Shown: positions 29,635 to 39,962 of the stretch, piece by piece
How the letters are laid out: each line of letters opens with the position of its first letter
Position numbering within the stretch: the first letter of the stretch is position 1
Assembly: GCF_900114495.1 (NCBI RefSeq)
Contig: NZ_FOZI01000002.1
Span: forward strand, 124,001-188,000
Direction: 5' to 3'
DNA from: Dyella sp. OK004
GTDB lineage: Bacteria; Pseudomonadota; Gammaproteobacteria; Xanthomonadales; Rhodanobacteraceae
DNA length: 64,000 bases
Made by a program: the position numbers and the translations under genes
The notes under the pieces: generated by a model
Seen by the model: the letters and a program-made list of their open reading frames with translations, nothing else
Told to the model about the DNA's origin: nothing
The model's database searches: none

Positions 29635-31404
29635 TTAAAGGCCTGTACGCCTGACCAAGTGAACTGAGCCAAAGGTCACAACATCAGCGGCACCCTGTAA
29701 CCGAGGCACCTGCTTTTCATCAATGGTCAATACGTAATTGGTACCGGATGCATGGGCAGCAGCCTGATCTCTTAGGTACGGTGACAGGTAGCCCGCCGCA
29801 TCAGGATCCGTGAAATCGAAAACCACATGAGCATCCGTCACGTACGGCACCCAGTGCCCGTAATAGAACGATGCGGGCGTCTGCCCCAACAAGACGGCTT
29901 CACCGGGGAGTGATTTCGCCAGCCATCTCCCCATGGACACGAGATCCGGCGACACACGCCGCTCCTCAGCGAAGCTCCAGGAGCGCCGGATCATCCTGCC
30001 GTCACGCACCACCATGCCAGCAACGACCACAATGATGCATGTCACGATTACCGCTCGGATCGCTAGCCGTAAGGGCTGCTCGTTGCCTTTTGCCAACAAC
30101 GCAGCCACGCAGACAACGAGAATGCCTTGAAACGAGGTCACAAAGTATTCGCTGAGTTTGAATCCACCGTAGTCATAATTGCGAACGACCATAGCCGCTA
30201 GCGCTAAACCGAACGCAATCAGAATGCCTACAAATAGTGGGCGTAGGTTCGACGCATCGATTCGAGCCAATGCGCGCCACGCCACCAATAGAGTCAGAGC
30301 AGCAGCCCCAGCCAACGGCAGACCAGCATACATATAACCAATCTGCCCCGAAGCGGCACCCTGACTAACTTCAAGTGTGGCCTTGTATACGGTAAAAGTC
30401 CCCAGCGCACTCCACGGCACCAGCGCACAAGCCGCGACCACTTCTGCGAGCAGCATGCCGATCTCCCGCAACCCGCCCTTCATCTGTCGCACGCTCAACA
30501 TACCGCACGCTACAGCGAAGAAACGCATAGCTCCCACGAAAACCAGTATCTCCGGATAACCCGACAGAAGGCACCCAATAAAAAGTATGGCTGCGATAAA
30601 TGTAGAACGGGATCGTGGCACGGCACTCAAACCGACATAACCCGTTGCAGCTGCCAGCGTGAGGCTATTTGGAAAATTGGAGTTCATCGCGACGTAAAGC
30701 AGCGTTGGGCACGCCAACACAATAAGCGCTACGATGACGAATCTTCCTTTCGTGCTCGCAATACGCTGCACCGGCATAAACATCAATACAGCCAAGCCAG
30801 CCAAGAGCACTCCCGCCGTCTGCACGGCGTTATAGAAATACATGGGGTCGATGCCCCGTAGCGCGCTCAACCACGCAAGAAACCCCTCCGATGCCGAGCG
30901 CACAACAAAGTAACCCTGAGTAATCTGATAGATCGGGTGCTCAGGGCTGAAGTCCGGCGCCCCGTTGAAGGGGTGGCCGAGCATATGTCTGGCAATGCTG
31001 GTGAAGATCAGCGAATCGGCATTTCGCGTTCCTTCGAACTGAATTGCACCATCAAACAGGATGGGCGCATTCAACAGTGCGGCGATCCCCACGATCACGA
31101 CACCAAGTATCACCAGCTGAGCGCCATGCTCACGAACAAGGATGGAAACGGTCTCACGAACACGACGAGGCGACCACAGCGCCACGAGTGCCACGGCGTA
31201 AGCGAGAAGCAACCAAAGTGCCGCCGGGGCTATGGGAACAACCATCTGTATCGCCCTGCAAACGATAAGAATGATCGAAAGACCGCAAGCAGCAGCCACG
31301 CCCACCGTGCGCAAATTTGGCCCGAAGCCCAGTAGGGCGGCAATGGGCAATCCAATGGCCAATGGCAGCGCCATTCCGGCCAGAAACGCATAGATGAATT
31401 CCAT
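29635..31404 (-). CDS. Polytopic membrane protein of unknown function
   Basis: 589 aa. About 12-13 hydrophobic helices over residues 1-460, then a soluble C-terminal part of about 130 residues (LGQTPASFYYGHWVPYVTD, FDFTDPDAAGYLSPYLRD) that would face the outside. The general plan (long loop after the second helix pair, many helices, soluble tail) resembles GT-C-fold glycosyltransferases, but I recognise no catalytic motif. Several 60-base lines count at 45-58% G+C, lower than neighbouring genes. It follows jetC on the same strand after 85 bases, in the place where jetD would normally lie; it is not a nuclease or Toprim protein. Function left open. Confidence 0.75.
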   Translation of the reverse strand: MEFIYAFLAGMALPLAIGLPIAALLGFGPNLRTVGVAAACGLSIILIVCRAIQMVVPIAPAALWLLLAYAVALVALWSPRRVRETVSILVREHGAQLVILGVVIVGIAALLNAPILFDGAIQFEGTRNADSLIFTSIARHMLGHPFNGAPDFSPEHPIYQITQGYFVVRSASEGFLAWLSALRGIDPMYFYNAVQTAGVLLAGLAVLMFMPVQRIASTKGRFVIVALIVLACPTLLYVAMNSNFPNSLTLAAATGYVGLSAVPRSRSTFIAAILFIGCLLSGYPEILVFVGAMRFFAVACGMLSVRQMKGGLREIGMLLAEVVAACALVPWSALGTFTVYKATLEVSQGAASGQIGYMYAGLPLAGAAALTLLVAWRALARIDASNLRPLFVGILIAFGLALAAMVVRNYDYGGFKLSEYFVTSFQGILVVCVAALLAKGNEQPLRLAIRAVIVTCIIVVVAGMVVRDGRMIRRSWSFAEERRVSPDLVSMGRWLAKSLPGEAVLLGQTPASFYYGHWVPYVTDAHVVFDFTDPDAAGYLSPYLRDQAAAHASGTNYVLTIDEKQVPRLQGAADVVTFGSVHLVRRTGL

Positions 31405-31489
31405 AAACCCCGTTCCGAAAAATCAAGTTATTCCGCAGGTGAGGAATTAGCATAGCGGGAAGTCCACCACTAAACCGCCCAGCTCCCGT

Positions 31490-34400
31490 CTATGACTTAC
31501 GTGCAGGTTCCGGTAACTCGAGCTTCTGCTTCACCTCGTCGTACTCAATCAGCAATACGCCCGAATCATGGCGGCCGTTGATATCCACGAAGCACGCCCC
31601 GCCAATGAACGGCTCCAGCGTCATCACTGATTTCAACGGTGTCGCCACCACCATCTGGAAGCCGAAGTTCTCAAAGATATTCATCGCCAGCGCGGTGAAT
31701 TCGTTATCGGCCTTGTCAAAGGCCTCGTCGAGCACCACCGGCGCATAACGCGGCAAATGGCCATCTTCGCCGCCGAGCTGGTAGCGCAAGGCGGCGGCAA
31801 GGCAGGTGGTCGCCAGCTTCTGGCGTTGGCCGCCCGACTTGCCAGCACCGCTGCGATACACCTCTACCTGTCGGCGCGTATCCACCTCCACTTCCACGCC
31901 GACAAACTCCACGTGCTGGCGCACGTCCAGCACCTGCTCGCGCCAGCGGCGCTGCTCCGGGTCCTGTGCGCCGAGGCGCGCCACCAGTTGGCGCAGCACG
32001 GCGAACCGCACCTCCGCACGTTCGCGATCTTCCGTCTGGTTCTGCATCAGCACATCGCGTAGCTGGCCCTGGAAATCGCGCACCTCCTGCAAGCCACGAT
32101 CCGTCATCTCAATCTGCAGCAGTGTGCCCCGATTGAAGGGCACACGCTCCAGGCTCTCGTTAACCTCTTCCATGCGCTGACCGATCGATTTGCGCGCTTC
32201 GGTCATATGCTTCTGAAGTACCAGCAGATCCTGTTTGCTCTGGTTCTGCAGCAACTCGAAGAAGCGCGCCTCGTGTTTGGGCAGGCCATCCAGCTCCAGG
32301 CGTCGCAGGCGGGCCATGAAGCCTTCGGCAGCTTCAAGGGTCGGCGTGAAATCCGCGCCATCCTGTGGCCAGCGGCGGCAGAAAGCGTGGAAGCACTCCT
32401 CTATCGCCTGCACCCATTGATGGTCCTGCGCTGCCTGCCCATTGAGCACATCGTGCAGCGCGCGTTCGAGTGTGCGGAATTGACTGTCGATATTGTCCAG
32501 GGAGAGAGCAGGCTGCGACGGCAGCCGTGCCTCCAAGCCTTCTGATTGCACCGGTGTGAGCGCCGCCATTCCCGCTCTTGCCGCACAAGCCTCACGCTGT
32601 GACGCAAGGCCGCGGTGCTCGCGCCCCGCAGCAATACGCTCCGCAGCGACATCTTCATAGGACTTCGCCGAACGCTGACGCTGGCCGCGTTCCGATTCAA
32701 TCTGTTGGGCCAGTGCCTGCAGATTGGCATCGCCCTCGCCTAACTGAAGTAGCTGGGTCTCGATATCGCCCAGACGCTGCAGCTTGGGCGCCACATCGAT
32801 TTCTTCCCATTCCACGCCCAGCAATGCGGCAGCGGCCAGGCGACGATCGCCTTCCTGGTCGCGCTGCTGCTTGAGTGCAGTCAATGCGTCGCCGCTACGC
32901 GCAATCGCCTGAGCCAGCTCGCCACCTTCTTTCTCGAACAACACCAGCTTGTCGCGATTGTCGAAACCGAGCACCCAGTGCCGACGGTCATCCACCCCGC
33001 GCCGATCGTCCTTCTCATAGCGATCGCCGGGATGCTTGACCTGGCCCTCTCGCGTGATCGCGCGATCAGCCTGACGCAAGGCCGCGGCCGTATCCACGCA
33101 GGCATAGTCGAAACGGCGCGCCAGTTCGGCCTGGAGCCATGTTTGATGCGCGTGATCGCGACTATCCAGCCGATGCACCAGCGAACGCGATTCGGGTTTG
33201 CGTTGGCCGAAGTTCTCCACGCGATTCACGCGGTAGTACACCAGCTTGCCACCCAGGTGGGTCTTGTTGACCCACGCAGCGACCTCGCTGTACTGGCGCT
33301 CATCCACCAGCAACGACAAGGCGAAACCATGCAGCACGCGCTCGATGGCGCCGCGCCAGGCAGGATGCTCATCCTTGACCTGAAGCAGCTCGCCCACGAA
33401 AGGCAAAACATTCTCCGACCAACCCAGCTCCTGACACAGACGCGCACGCATGGCCTGGATTGGCGCCGGGATATTGGATGGATGACGCTTGAGTGCATCA
33501 ATCTCTGCTCGCACCGTCGCGAAGCGCTGTGCTGCCACACCGCCGTCGCGCTTGAGCGCATCCATTTTTTCTTCGAGTGCCGAGGCTTGTCCACGCACAC
33601 CGTCGACAAGCTCCCGCGCCTGCCCTGCCAGCTCGGCAAAGCCGCGCGCACTTGAAGGGAGCGTCCAGCCCAACTCCTGGCAAGCAGCTTCGATCTTGCC
33701 CCGTCGTCGCAGACGCTCGTCGCGCTCGCGCACCATTTGCTCGCGGTCACGCTCCAACTGATCGATCGCGCCACCACCCTGCTCACGCCGGCGCCGCTCC
33801 AGATCAGCCAGGTGCTGGTCGTGGTTGTCCAGCAACGCCTTGCGCTGCACCAGCTCACCTTCCAGCGCCTGCTGCTGCACCTGCAGCTCGGCCAGACGCC
33901 CGTCCAGCAACATAAGCCGGCGTTGCTCCCGAAACAGATCGACACCCTGCTGTTGCTCGCGCAGGGCGCTGGTCTCGCGGCGCAGATCCATCAGCTCGTC
34001 ATAGGCCTGACGCGCCGGCGCGAGAACGTTGACCTGTTCGCGGGCCACTACCACGGCTTTGTGAGCCGCATCGAGCTCGCCAAAATCGCCCACCAGTCGA
34101 TCCGCTGCGGCGAATGTCTCCGGCTCGTCCAGCATGAAGCTGCGCAGAAAGTGATTGAGGTCGCCCAAGTTCTTCGCGGACTGCGTCTTGTGCAGCAGCT
34201 TCAGCGCCATCTCGTTCTGGATGCCGAGCAGGCGTCGGAAACGCTCCGCGTAACCGGCAAACGCGTCGAAGTGATGTACCTCATCGCCTAGCCGCGTCTT
34301 GAGCCGGCGCAGGTCGAGATCGAAACCGTCCATATCCTTGGCGATATCGAAGGCGCGCTCAGCCACCATGTAATGCTTGCGCACATCGGCGGCGGCCGAG

Positions 34401-35137
34401 CCATTGCCGCTGATCCAGAACAGGCGAATCAAGGTGACCGTGGCGCCGAGCGCATTGCGGTATTCCTGCGCCAGTGCGGACCAGGTCGTGCCTTTACGCA
34501 GGTATTGCGTGGCAATTTCGCCGGAGTCGCTATCGTGCTGATCAGCCCACGCGCCACGCACATAGGAAGCCAGGCTGCGGTCGCGGCCACTGCGATCGGC
34601 TTCGCGCGCCGCTGCATTGAAATCCACCAGGCTGGGTGGCACCAACAACGCTGACATGGCATCGAGCAATGTGGACTTGCCGGAACCAGAGCGACCCACA
34701 AACAGGAAGCCCCGCTTGGCGATGGGGATATCGACCAGACCGCTGAACGTACCCCAGTTGAAAACCTGCAGGCGACGCATGCGGAACTGCTCGTCCCTGG
34801 GATCGGGCAGATCGGAAAGGAACAACGAGGGAGTTGCCGCTTGAACGGCCTTGGCTGGCTTGGCGCGCTTCAGCGGCGCAGACGTTTCAGTGGGAGCGGC
34901 AGTTACAGCCGTGGATGCCGCTATTACGGGAGCCTCTGCGTTGGTAGAAACCTTCGTTTTGGCCGGCCTGGATGCTTTCTCTGAGCCAACAACCTGCCCG
35001 CTTTTCTTCGTAACGTCCGCGGGCTTCGCTGACTTGAGCGGCTTCGCAGCTTTGCCAGATGCCTTGGCTTCCACCGGCGCAGCCTTGTTACCTGCACTCT
35101 TCGCCGACTTCTTTGCAGCCTTGCTCTTAACGCTCAT
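31490..35137 (-). CDS. jetC: Wadjet/Mks SMC-like ATPase JetC (MksB) with Lys-rich N-terminal extension
   Basis: Condensin-like motor, 1,215 aa. Head N part with Walker A GRSGSGKS (148-155); coiled coils about 390-560 and 740-980; hinge about 590-720 ([24 protein letters not shown] type). Head C part with signature SGGQRQKL and Walker [14 protein letters not shown]. In type I Wadjet this protein, with JetA and JetB, extrudes DNA loops, and JetD then cuts small circles (family knowledge). Residues 1-100 are an unusual extension rich in Lys, Ala and Pro (19 Lys in the first 97), like histone H1 tails; the family-like part begins near residue 105. It overlaps jetB by 11 bases, with GAGGAG upstream. 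No jetD follows. Confidence 0.93.
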
Positions 35138-35801
35138 CCACGCACTCCTCGACCACCGCCTCCGCGCCGCGAAGTTCGCGATAGACCTGCGTCAAGGCCT
35201 GCACGTCTTCCGCCGAAAACAGCAGTTTCAAGGTAGGTGAAACCTCGAAACGGTCTTCGCTGCCGCGCAGGCGATCCAGCACGTGGTTGTCTTTCATCTT
35301 GCCGATCGCGGCCGATACACGCTTGGCGAAACCGGCGCGGTCGGTCGACAGGTTCTTTTCGTAGACGGAAAGCGCATCCACCAGAGCACCCTCTTCGACT
35401 ACGGCACGCAGCCCGTGTGCTTCGGCTTCGACAAGTTGCTGGCGCAAATGAAGCAGGAGCACCGTGTCGATAAAGGTCAAGGCAGAGGAACGCAGCAGTA
35501 CCGGCGTATCCAGCTCACCGGTATCGGCTTGGCGCGCAAAAGCCACGCCGGCCTCGCGATCCACTACCAGTTCCAGGAAAAGCTCGCACAACTGCGAACG
35601 CAGTGTCGTTTCATAGCGAAGCAACGCGGGCCACAACAAACCGTGGCGCCCCATGTCCACGCTAGGGCCAGCCAGCAGCTGGCACAGCACACGGCGCGCC
35701 TCCAGCGGCAACACGCCGGTATCTCCTTCGAACAAACCCTTTGCGCCTGTGGGCGCAGATTCGTGAGGGGCGCCGAGTGTCTCGGTCTCAAGCAAGTTCA
35801 T
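35127..35801 (-). CDS. jetB: Wadjet JetB (MksE, DUF4194)
   Basis: Small winged-helix kite subunit of the JetABC condensin; bridges the JetA kleisin. 224 aa from ATG 35801; longer starts upstream would run into jetA with no similarity. Recognised by its position and DUF4194-like body: [17 protein letters not shown], a long helix-rich centre, [20 protein letters not shown], then a basic segment before [18 protein letters not shown]. Overlaps jetA by 14 bases and jetC by 11 bases, so translation is coupled and equal dosage is likely. Confidence 0.9.
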
Positions 35802-37257
35802 CGCGCTTCTCTTTGAGGAACCATACGAGGGGAATACGGGCATGGCGCCATTGGCCATCGCTGCCCTGCCACGCGACTTCTTCCAGCTCGCCTTCGGCGA
35901 CCACGCCGTGACGCGTCGCGAGCGACAGGAAGCCGATGATGCTGCCCAGGCCCTGCTCGGCCGGACGCTGCGTCAGCACTTCGCGAATGGAGAGCTGATC
36001 GTATGTCTGCAGCAGCTCGTGGATATCGCGGCGGAGGCCGCGGAAATTGATCTCGGACTGCGCCACCAGCTCACCTACGCTGTCCAGCGAAATGGCGGCG
36101 CCGCCGCTCAGATCGATGCGTCCGTCCACGCAAGTATGGCGCGGGTCATGCAATCGCCATTGTGACAGCGAGCGTAAGCGGGAACTGGTGAGAGGCAATA
36201 CAAACGGGGTGCGTTGATGGGCGCTCACTTCGTCGCGCAGCTGAAGCGCCTCCGCCTGCGCCTGTTTCAGTAGCTGATTGAGGCGCCGCTGCTCCAGATA
36301 GCCACGGCTCTGCACGAAGCCGCGCAAGCTGCGGGCAAAGTGCTGCATGACGTCGTGTACCTGGCTGCCGCGCTCCAGCATGACGCTGGTGAAGCCACGC
36401 AACAGCCGACGCTCCTCACGTTGCAGGCGGCGGGCAAAGCCGCGCGACAGCACCGTCTCCATGGCCGTATCGAACTGATGGCTCTGCTCCATATTGTTGA
36501 GCAGCTTCCAGAACGCTTGAAAGCTTCGCCCCGCCTCGCTTTCAGCGATCACATCCACGCCACCGAACAAGCGGTCGAGCAGTTCGCCACGATGGCCTTC
36601 GTCGTCGATGATGCGTTCGCGGAAATCGCGATTGAGGCGCTCAAAATCGTCGCGCACTCGGCGGAAATCCTCCGCAAGATCGTCGGCCAGCTGGATGATC
36701 TCGCGCGTGCGCTCCAGCGCCCGGTGTCCACCAAGGGCATCCACTTTGCCGCTCTTGACGCGTTCGATCTCTGCATCCAGGCGGTCGCGTTCTGCCTGCA
36801 GCACGTCCAGGCGCGCCGCGGGATCGGATTCAGTCTGCTCGGCCAGGTGCACCAGTTGCTGGATCACCAGCGACAGGCGGCTTTCCGTCGCCGCATAGCG
36901 TGGCGTAGTCAGGCCGGCGATAAAACGCACCGCTTGCGCAGCCTGCGCCGACAGCTCGTACTCTTCCTCGCTGGCACCTTCGGGGAGCCGGCGCTCAAGG
37001 AAACCTTGCGAGAGCCAGTGCGCCACATAGGCAGGCGCCGTGCGCGGCAGCTCGCGCGGGAGATCGGACGCGTTGATCGCATCCAGATGGTCCTGCAGGC
37101 GTTCGTGCAGAACGGAGGCGGGAAGCCGCCGCTCGCCATCTTGCAGCAGCGTCTGCAGCAAGCCGATCAGTTCAGGGGCATGGTCGGCGGCCAGCAGCCG
37201 CCACAGGGCTTGATCGCGCAGCTGACGGTAGCCGGCAACGCGTGCTTGCAGCTTCAT
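35788..37257 (-). CDS. jetA: Wadjet JetA (MksF, DUF3375), kleisin-like subunit
   Basis: Kleisin-like subunit that closes the JetC ring. 489 aa from ATG 37257 with AGGAG upstream; the longer frame overlaps obgE and is not family-like. N-terminal winged-helix part ([20 protein letters not shown]), central coiled coil (about 180-310) with [20 protein letters not shown], and a conserved DUF3375 segment [18 protein letters not shown]-terminal winged-helix region ([23 protein letters not shown]). First gene of jetABC, 52 bases after the obgE stop on the same strand; no clear promoter lies in that gap, so read-through from obgE is possible. Confidence 0.92.
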
Positions 37258-37309
37258 GCGTGGGTGATGCTCCTGCGATACGGGAAAGAAGGAACGGCGT
37301 ACCGCGAAC

Positions 37310-38753
<1,444 letters not shown>

Positions 38754-38778: not shown

Positions 38779-39093
38779 TCAGGCGTTGATGCCCGTGATC
38801 TCGATTTCGGTGAAGTGCTGACGATGTCCCTGCTGCTTCTTGTGGTGCTTGCGGCGGCGGAACTTGATGATGCGGACTTTATCGGCGCGGCCGTGCTTGC
38901 GCACGGTGGCGCTGACGGTGGCGCCTGCCACGGTCGGGGCACCGACGGTGATGGTCTCGCCGGCGCCGACCAGCAGCACCTGGTCGAAATTCACAGCGGC
39001 GCCTTCTTCGGCGTTCAGCAGCTCCACGCGCAGGACATCGCCCTGCTGGACGCGGTACTGCTTGCCACCGGTCTTGATGACTGCATAACTCAT
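38779..39093 (-). CDS. rplU: 50S ribosomal protein L21
   Basis: 104 aa, standard length; binds 23S r[22 protein letters not shown] at the N-terminus, and [16 protein letters not shown] near the end. AAGGGA seven bases before the ATG. First gene of rplU-rpmA, transcribed from the promoter at 39162-39191, with a leader of about 60 bases. Confidence 0.98.
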
Positions 39094-39161: not shown

Positions 39162-39191
39162 ATTATAGCGAGCCGCCGCGCCACTGGTCAA
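39162..39191 (-). promoter_or_regulatory. Sigma-70 promoter of rplU-rpmA
   Basis: Minus strand TTGACC (39191-39186), 18-base spacer, TATAAT (39167-39162). The perfect -10 fits a strongly expressed ribosomal operon. Confidence 0.85.
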
Positions 39192-39209: not shown

Positions 39210-39962
39210 TCAGGACGAGGTGGCCGGCTTGGCTGGCGCTGGGGCGGCAGGCTTCGACTTGCTGTCAGCCTGCGGCTTCGCGGCAGGGGTCTTAGCTGGC
39301 GCCTTCTTGCCCTTGGTCGCGCTCTTGGCTGGCGTTTTGGATTTGGCCTTGGTGTGTGTGGCCGCCTTCTTTACCGCCGGCTTGGCAGCTGGCGCGGCGT
39401 CCTGGGCCTCGTCCTCATCATCACCCCCGGCTGCTGCTCCGGTAGCCAGACCGGCAGCCGAGGTGCCACCGGCGATGGCCGGCCCGGCCTTATTGGTGGC
39501 CGGGCAACGTCCGTTGGCGTCCAGGCTACCCTTCTGTTTCAGCTCGGCGATAAGCTGGTCGCTGCGCTCCTTGCTCCACTGCAGGCCGGCCTGGTTGGCC
39601 TCGCCCATGGTGGTGGGCATCTCGGTGATCACTTTCTGGCCCAGTGGGGAGCGATAGAACTTCAGCATCCCCTCGATCTCATCGGCACTGAAATGGCGCT
39701 GGTAGATCGGCACCAGGCGACCGATGAACTGCTGGGTGCCATTGGCGTCGATGTAGTTCTGCCAGTAATTGGCCGGCACACAGGGCAACGACTGCTGCAT
39801 CACCCCGACAGCCTGGCTGTTCATCTGGCTGAGCATCTTGCCCACCCCGACCACTTCCATCAGCTGGCGCACCTGCTCTTCGCTGGGCTGGGTGGCGGCC
39901 GTCGCCGGGCCCACACACAGCGCCAGTGCCAGGACGGCCCCCCATCCTTTCCACTTGTGCAT
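39210..39962 (-). CDS. DUF2059 exported protein with Lys/Ala/Pro-rich C-terminal tail
   Basis: 250 aa. Signal peptide about 1-22 (WGAVLALALCVGPATAA). DUF2059 region about 60-135 (RHFSADEIEGMLKFYRSPLGQKVITEMP), a fold seen in many exported proteobacterial proteins of unknown role. Two cysteines (LPCVP, GRCPAT) could pair. Residues about 155-250 are low complexity: an acidic patch (GGDDEDEAQD) followed by repeated KPA/AKS/KTPA units, about 20 lysines, which could contact peptidoglycan, LPS or DNA. Ends 117 bases before the rplU start. Divergent from uvrA. Function unknown. Confidence 0.8.
   Translation of the reverse strand: MHKWKGWGAVLALALCVGPATAATQPSEEQVRQLMEVVGVGKMLSQMNSQAVGVMQQSLPCVPANYWQNYIDANGTQQFIGRLVPIYQRHFSADEIEGMLKFYRSPLGQKVITEMPTTMGEANQAGLQWSKERSDQLIAELKQKGSLDANGRCPATNKAGPAIAGGTSAAGLATGAAAGGDDEDEAQDAAPAAKPAVKKAATHTKAKSKTPAKSATKGKKAPAKTPAAKPQADSKSKPAAPAPAKPATSS

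Follow-up and report, generated by a model that had tools for sequence, protein, structure and literature searches.

In Wadjet type I systems DNA is extruded by a dimeric motor, JetABC, and the cut is made by JetD when a small circle has been extruded completely (PMC12647877, PMC10586767). Extrusion is assigned to the JetABC core, and the periphery of the hinge bypasses obstacles (PMC12647877). The jetABCD genes are reported from most strains of Xylella fastidiosa (PMC9148166). Loss of JetD has been proposed as the origin of MksBEF of Pseudomonas aeruginosa (PMC10586767), which is described as acting in chromosome organisation, layout and segregation (PMC7485682). A Wadjet I system without jetD is already known from Stenotrophomonas maltophilia, where it is conserved, lies in an island with RecBCD, has JetABC proteins more than 95% identical and is described as 'probably inactive' (PMC11680222). 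Here we describe a jetABC operon in Dyella sp. OK004. It lies in a window of 64,000 nucleotides (contig NZ_FOZI01000002.1, positions 124,001 to 188,000 of the forward strand), and all coordinates are those of this window.

On balance we favour the interpretation that a Wadjet I motor lost JetD in an ancestor of the Dyella group and was kept as a nuclease-free loop extruder, probably an accessory chromosomal condensin beside the complex of SMC (structural maintenance of chromosomes) and ScpAB. The original prediction, made from the sequence of the window, had seen a loop extruder without its cutter, either repurposed for chromosome upkeep or using a nuclease encoded elsewhere, and had proposed a genome-wide profile search for JetD and a comparison of the locus across relatives. 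Both were done. The motor without JetD stood up, and a JetD-type nuclease elsewhere is disfavoured. The implied novelty is reduced by the JetD-less set already described from S. maltophilia (PMC11680222) and by the proposal for the origin of MksBEF (PMC10586767). The searches made of open-licence texts in PubMed Central (PMC) gave no account of repeated in-place loss in three genera, of selection on such sets or of the Dyella locus behind obg.

The jetABC operon and the search for JetD

The three genes follow each other in one unit (Table 1), with overlaps of 14 bases between jetA and jetB (counted with the MNLLE start) and 11 bases between jetB and jetC, as predicted. In PADLOC the three proteins match best the Wadjet type I models JetA1, JetB1 and JetC1; NCBIfam gave no name for any of them. 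The start of jetA is the ATG at 37257, with AGGAG upstream. The start of jetB was placed at the ATG of MNLLE by comparison with the frame of the JetD-positive D. choica; the mechanical open reading frame (ORF) opens further upstream, at 35858. JetC aligns with the solved JetC chains 8dk2 (residues 116-1192) and 8as8 (116-1203). Its Walker A motif, signature SGGQ and Walker B motif are intact, also in agreement with the original prediction, and in a 16-sequence alignment they are invariant except for one Walker A position, as in an SMC loop extruder.

Table 1. Features of the jet locus and its surroundings, in window coordinates
Feature	Coordinates	Strand	Evidence or remark
jetA (DUF3375, kleisin-type subunit), 489 residues	35788-37257	minus	Pfam DUF3375 2.6e-152; PADLOC JetA1 2.1e-189
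jetB (DUF4194, KITE-type subunit)	35127-35801	minus	Pfam DUF4194 2.4e-44; PADLOC JetB1 4.6e-98
jetC (SMC-like ATPase), 1215 residues	31490-35137	minus	PADLOC JetC1 E=0, 1410 bits; Pfam SbcC_Walker_B 8.2e-25, AAA_29 3.5e-23
Lys/Ala/Pro-rich, histone-H1-like N-terminal tail of JetC, residues 1-~107	34817-35137	minus	19 Lys, net charge +16
Gap of 85 bases between jetC and the next ORF	31405-31489		Position of jetD in JetD-positive relatives; no jetD remnant found
Polytopic membrane protein, 589 residues, not counted in the system	29635-31404	minus	11 hydrophobic segments (Kyte-Doolittle)
obg (Obg/CgtA GTPase), upstream of jetA	37310-38389	minus	Pfam GTP1_OBG 7.9e-62; start inferred from MKFVDEA
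obg-jetA spacer, 52 bases from stop to start	37258-37309		No terminator-like site
rpmA (ribosomal protein L27)	38496-38753	minus
rplU (ribosomal protein L21)	38779-39093	minus
Sigma-70-like promoter upstream of rplU, weak	39162-39191	minus	11/12 matches; possible operon promoter

The overlapping jetA-jetB-jetC unit is that of Wadjet type I. The JetD Toprim nuclease of this type (JetD_C, PF09983, and DUF3322, PF11795) was found neither in the operon nor in the genome. With an SMC protein, a kleisin and a KITE subunit and without a nuclease subunit, the set has the composition of Mks-type complexes, the subunit roles being assigned by homology to JetABC. The original prediction gave the genes, the overlaps and the gap correctly and overlooked both the Lys/Ala-rich tail of JetC and the spacing from obg.

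No remnant of jetD was detected by tblastn with JetD proteins (E<=1e-3) in the 5 kb after jetC, in line with the prediction. In the host assembly (4.96 Mb, 99.99% complete, 8 contigs) PF09983 had 0 matches and PF11795 had 0 at E<=1. A profile built from a nine-sequence JetD alignment was run at E<=10 on eight JetD-negative genomes of the Dyella group and on two JetD-positive controls. It matched both positive controls (D. marensis, G236, 1.8e-167; G248, 5.7e-178) and none of the eight JetD-negative genomes (G000, which is the host, G189, G218, G125, G299, G240, G285, G295). The host genome contains one DUF3375 gene only at E<=1, hence nothing points to a second jet set. A nuclease encoded elsewhere is therefore disfavoured, as far as JetD homologues go, and a JetD gene close to another jet set, which according to the original prediction would have refuted it, was not seen.

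In D. subtropica (G189) a weak JetD_C match (9.7e-11) lies at C10:89724-90008, in a frame of 421 residues far from jetABC. The full-length JetD alignment at E<=10 gave no match at this site.

Loss of jetD in Lysobacterales

The clearest traces of jetD loss are the junctions. In six blastn comparisons within four close groups, the DNA after jetC in the JetD-negative member aligns with the DNA after jetD in the JetD-positive one. The pairs are D. flagellata with D. choica and with D. acidisoli, D. monticola with D. nitratireducens, Xanthomonas sp. GPE 39 with X. albilineans, and UBA4619 and ISL-67 with S. rhizophila GN_RF2.1. The match begins 6-75 bases after jetC in the former and 1-919 bases after jetD in the latter; hence more than jetD differs in some pairs. 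Between the window and D. marensis, common DNA resumes ~1.9 kb after jetC, past the gene of the membrane protein. The junction claim rests on blastn, as neighbour maps made from mechanical ORFs are noisy in GC-rich DNA.

Trees of 47 and of 85 concatenated JetABC sets both scatter JetD-positive members among JetD-negative ones. The 85-locus tree requires 11 Dollo losses or 8 Fitch steps, in Dyella, Xanthomonas and Stenotrophomonas. The count for Dyella is uncertain by one, because the group of G240 is placed differently in the two trees. A single inferred loss accounts for one clade of 23 loci, in one of which the JetD state is unknown. For the positive loci, the main groups of the JetD tree match those of the JetABC tree, and thus JetD probably travelled with JetABC and is taken as ancestral. 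Compared in this way, the sequences indicate that jetD has been lost repeatedly and in place in Dyella, Xanthomonas and Stenotrophomonas, and the sister pairs answer the comparison across relatives proposed in the original prediction.

The loci comprise stretches of up to 19.4 kb around 60 places, together with the 80 best of 261 named loci, which are 5.9-23.7 kb long. Wide loci were available for all but 11 of the 69 genomes of the order with strong DUF3375 matches; these 11 are mostly fragmentary and include four members of a distant family (G134, G168, G188, G209; 73-93% complete, no strong JetD). The 85-locus set consists of the 80 named loci minus the partial L156 and L202, plus the window, L061, L124, L068, L075, L105 and L071; 63 loci are JetD-negative, 21 are JetD-positive and one is of unknown state. 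The last is S. terrae, whose contig ends 66 bases after jetC. Stenotrophomonas sp. YIM B06876, where JetD is cut by the contig end, was scored positive. In X. hortorum jj2001 a 25-bit JetD match was overruled by hand, and tblastn found no JetD. X. axonopodis is represented by the longer of its two jetC pieces. The locus L185 bears the label Bacillus subtilis SK7B5, clusters with jetABC sets of Stenotrophomonas and probably represents contamination; it was kept among the 63 JetD-negative loci.

Within the genus of the host JetC is present in 6/6 genomes, five of them without JetD. JetD_C matches occur in 47/299 genomes of the order. When only strong matches are counted (DUF3375 E<=1e-70, JetD_C E<=1e-40, G060 and G284 left out), JetA is present in 69 genomes, of which 31 also have JetD. 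Strong JetD is missing in 34 of the 48 JetA genomes of families f1 and f2 and in 4 of the 21 of other families, all four fragmentary. In the class (370 genomes; DUF3375 E<=1e-80, JetD E<=1e-35) strong DUF3375 was found in 40 genomes. Four belong to Lysobacterales, and all four have no JetD; outside the order, 33 of 36 have strong JetD. Among the three exceptions, the gene of G397 lies at a contig end, the DUF3375 of G383 is broken, and in G325 an SNF2-type gene follows jetABC. By these class counts, it is mainly in Lysobacterales that an otherwise intact set has lost JetD (Fisher p 7e-9, from hand-made counts of the order and class searches and ignoring relatedness).

In G325 (L224, 8647-17296) jetABC is followed by an overlapping gene of ~1013 residues encoding an SNF2-type helicase, in the place of jetD, and no PF09983 match was found in this genome. 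The Stenotrophomonas-like genome G228 (genus g34; L105, L106) has two sets, a more distant jetABCD that is complete and a jetABC without JetD.

Selection on jetABC

The ratio of nonsynonymous to synonymous substitution rates (dN/dS) was compared in 11 JetD-negative and 5 JetD-positive pairs; the values are rough, because several dS exceed 1. For JetA it is 0.03-0.13 in the former against 0.06-0.10 in the latter, for JetC 0.045-0.18 against 0.05-0.12. JetB is looser in both, up to 0.24 in JetD-positive pairs. Only 1 of the 63 JetD-negative jetC frames of the 85-locus set is shorter than 1100 codons. As far as sequence comparison can tell, jetABC has been mostly under purifying selection after the loss of JetD, which is not the pattern of a dead system.

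Three JetD-negative and two JetD-positive groups were also compared along JetC. Windows at ~560-584 and 1016-1052 vary more and those at 824-920 less in the JetD-negative groups. This comparison was exploratory (~90 overlapping windows, no null model), and its result was not used.

The N-terminus of JetB carries the pattern LFxGD in the near clade, in JetD-positive and JetD-negative members alike where it was found, with the variants LFESD in D. monticola and VFYxGD in Stenotrophomonas. The search for LFxGD gave nothing in many rows of the S. maltophilia type or in the distant clade. An IFDR motif at the JetB N-terminus is described as a contact with JetD (PMC10586767); alignment with distant JetB proteins did not establish that LFxGD corresponds to it.

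Lysine-rich tails of JetC

The tail of the window JetC falls outside the region matching solved JetC. It was recognised by a composition rule, namely a Lys/Ala/Pro-rich, low-acid terminal stretch of at least 60 residues. The first-start rule makes some JetC N-termini too long, for example in Rhodanobacter, P. boreopolis and Coralloluteibacterium; such extensions are ignored by the Lys-based rule. All five JetD-negative genomes of the genus have the N-terminal tail (the window, D. subtropica, SG609, G299, G125), and it is missing in the sixth, the JetD-positive D. marensis. In the five tailed genomes the frame is open, the proportion of nonsynonymous differences (pN) is below that of synonymous ones (pS) in 10/10 comparisons, and the sequence drifts; for these reasons the tail looks kept for its composition.

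Elsewhere the tail is at the C-terminus: in 18/23 loci of the large Xanthomonas/Stenotrophomonas clade and in 4/4 of the S. rhizophila group. The loci of the large clade that fail the rule are X. phaseoli (odd JetC frame), S. terrae, Iso1, SY1 and ATCM1_4. Altogether, tails were found in 27/63 JetD-negative JetC proteins, in 0/21 JetD-positive ones and in 0/1 of unknown state; a further 15 JetC proteins of the distant JetD-positive clade gave 0/15. They have about three origins. The C-terminal tails may have become possible when an overlapping jetD start was removed and the end of jetC was set free; this cannot explain the N-terminal one. In 344 kb of the host genome 2/205 ORFs are tailed, JetC and a DUF2059 protein (ORFs of 120 residues or more, covering 67% of the 344 kb).

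Lysine repeats are reported to hold topoisomerase TopA of Streptomyces on DNA and to raise its processivity, and to occur also in Caulobacter and Bordetella (PMC7398561). We found no paper on H1-like JetC tails in the open-licence PMC literature, which was mostly searched on other aspects.

Neighbouring genes

In 20/20 Dyella loci examined (14 distinct genomes) jetA follows obg, in the presence of JetD or not. The distance is ~11-226 nucleotides, counted in relatives from the end of the obg alignment plus the stop codon, and 49-63 nucleotides in four relatives of the tailed group. Read-through from rplU-rpmA-obg into jetABC may be expected from this arrangement. The signals themselves are close to chance: a scan of 8 kb yielded 2 promoter-like sites against 1.6 expected and, on both strands, 7 terminator-like sites against 5.9 expected, with some inside jetA and jetB.

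The next gene on the strand after jetC encodes a polytopic membrane protein and not JetD, as the original prediction had said. It has no Pfam family at 1e-3 (one sub-threshold match at E=0.29), nothing in PADLOC, NCBIfam or PHROGs and no match to the sequences of the PDB at E<=1. An alignment-free AlphaFold model has a mean pLDDT (predicted local distance difference test) of 43.8, too poor for a fold search. The gene sits between jetC and the murJ/rpsT region, and no counterpart was seen among the neighbour genes mapped in relatives. It was considered as a hidden JetD and rejected because of the missing family match, the hydrophobic segments and the missing counterpart; from sequence and hydropathy, a Toprim fold is unlikely. 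In the sister genus an asparaginase-family gene follows jetC in several JetD-negative genomes.

Possible role of the JetD-less motor

Under the favoured interpretation the loss of JetD would leave an ATP-driven DNA extruder, extrusion being expected from the studied Wadjet I complexes. The tail of JetC may add non-specific DNA binding and a longer stay on DNA, as do the lysine repeats of Streptomyces TopA. The complex would be an accessory condensin, perhaps made together with the ribosomal-protein/Obg operon, and could act on the chromosome beside SMC-ScpAB. The latter probably does the main chromosomal work, since the host genome has ScpA, the one subunit of this complex that was searched for. 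Repurposing for chromosome upkeep, the first option of the original prediction, would fit the observations that jetABC is mostly under purifying selection, that it keeps its place behind obg and that jetD was lost repeatedly. A wider generalisation, which we put forward only tentatively, is that Wadjet motors repeatedly become chromosomal machines in Lysobacterales, through in-place deletion of jetD and with about three lineages gaining, at opposite ends, an H1-like SMC tail that would hold chromosomal DNA.

Several observations speak against this interpretation. Firstly, JetABC is not universal, DUF3375 being matched in 71/299 genomes of the order. Secondly, selection is not uniformly strict: for JetC the largest dN/dS values are somewhat higher in the JetD-negative pairs (0.15 and 0.18, with 0.12 as the maximum of the JetD-positive ones), and one JetD-negative pair has 0.39 for JetB. 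There are also signs of decay. The jetC gene is in two frames in the JetD-negative X. axonopodis DSM 3585, where an assembly error is possible; 2.3 kb separate jetB from jetC in X. phaseoli, within a JetD-less clade; the jetC frame of G012 is short, and in G060 no more than a remnant of jetA is left. Thirdly, if LFxGD is the counterpart of IFDR, a partner may still be bound, which counts against a motor freed from JetD. Fourthly, a weak terminator-like site (38455-38467, 5 pairs) lies in the rpmA-obg spacer. Finally, the tails do not follow the loss of JetD closely. By the rule, 6/11 JetD-negative Dyella-group sets in the tree are without one (G240, D. acidiphila, D. mobilis, D. flava, D. monticola and D. 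flagellata, with short basic N-termini of 22-44 residues). The main S. maltophilia group has neither JetD nor tail, and strain 13146, which groups with S. rhizophila, is tailed. JetD-negative branches make up 49% of the tree length, so that three of three tail origins would fall on them with a chance near 0.12; with so few origins the association is only suggestive. Moreover, the DUF2059 protein by rplU (39210-39962, minus strand), with a signal-peptide-like start, has a JetC-like Lys/Ala/Pro-rich C-terminal tail; such tails are thus rare, yet not limited to DNA-binding proteins.

It seems rather unlikely that JetABC still serves defence, restricting plasmid or phage DNA through an unrelated nuclease acting in trans or by compacting or silencing fully extruded small circles. 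JetABC is conserved about as in JetD-positive systems, judged by dN/dS, and the N-terminal motif of JetB is retained. The JetD-less set of S. maltophilia shares its island with RecBCD, which is a nuclease (PMC11680222), and in L224, from a distant relative, the fourth gene after jetABC is not jetD but one for an SNF2-type helicase. However, in the tested Wadjet systems the cutting is done by JetD (PMC10586767), which was found in 0/8 of the JetD-negative Dyella-group genomes, and no common new gene stands beside jetC in the mapped JetD-negative genomes of the genus.

We consider it improbable that the genes are a decaying remnant, dead since the loss of JetD and still to be erased, as has been suggested for S. 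maltophilia (PMC11680222). JetD loss is indeed frequent (11 Dollo losses), and the broken sets of X. axonopodis DSM 3585, G012 and G060 could be such remnants; yet the JetD-positive G292, with no jetB or jetC match, is broken as well. The dN/dS of JetA and JetC in JetD-negative pairs (0.03-0.18, rough where dS exceeds 1), the conserved active-site motifs, the near absence of short jetC frames, the identity above 95% of each of JetA, JetB and JetC across S. maltophilia strains (PMC11680222) and the 23-locus clade that shares one loss all argue against it. It is highly improbable that JetD was never ancestral and was gained several times by an older three-gene JetABC, as parsimony alone would allow for some regains (e.g. 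in S. rhizophila GN_RF2.1), since the JetD and JetABC trees agree in the main groups, the distant JetABC clade is JetD-positive in 15/15 loci (G134, G168, G188 and G209 being outside the sample), JetD accompanies strong DUF3375 in 33/36 genomes outside the order, and the junctions look like jetD removed from a common flank.

P. aeruginosa MksBEF is one proposed case of conversion between defence SMC complexes and chromosomal condensins (PMC10586767). If the wider generalisation is true, the JetD-less loci would be a natural replicated experiment in turning a defence SMC into a condensin. A histone-like tail carried by an SMC ATPase would provide a new means of tuning how long SMC complexes stay on DNA. 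JetD-positive and JetD-negative sisters at one locus (D. choica and D. flagellata, X. albilineans and Xanthomonas sp. GPE 39) make gene-by-gene tests possible. There is also a warning for annotation: these loci appear under the name Wadjet or are called 'probably inactive', yet the motor appears to be mostly under strong selection.

Comparison with known systems

The Dyella set agrees with Wadjet type I (JetABCD; EptABCD/MksBEFG) in subunits, gene order, overlaps and intact ATPase motifs. It differs in that no JetD was found in the genome, in the tail of JetC and in its place behind rplU-rpmA-obg. With the JetD-less Wadjet I of S. maltophilia it shares a kept and conserved jetABC, the missing jetD and a fixed chromosomal place; there, however, the locus is found with recBCD, between yfcA and mlaF, and the main group is untailed. 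Like P. aeruginosa MksBEF, it is a three-subunit MukBEF-like set that would act as a condensin beside SMC. The difference is that a chromosomal function has been shown for MksBEF, whereas the Dyella set is known from its genes and is likened to MksBEF by description. The tail resembles the lysine-repeat tails of topoisomerase I in being a Lys/Ala-rich H1-like sequence on a protein that acts on DNA, in Dyella an SMC ATPase, and a Lys/Ala-rich H1-like sequence is likewise described for the H1-like protein AlgP (PMC9239181).

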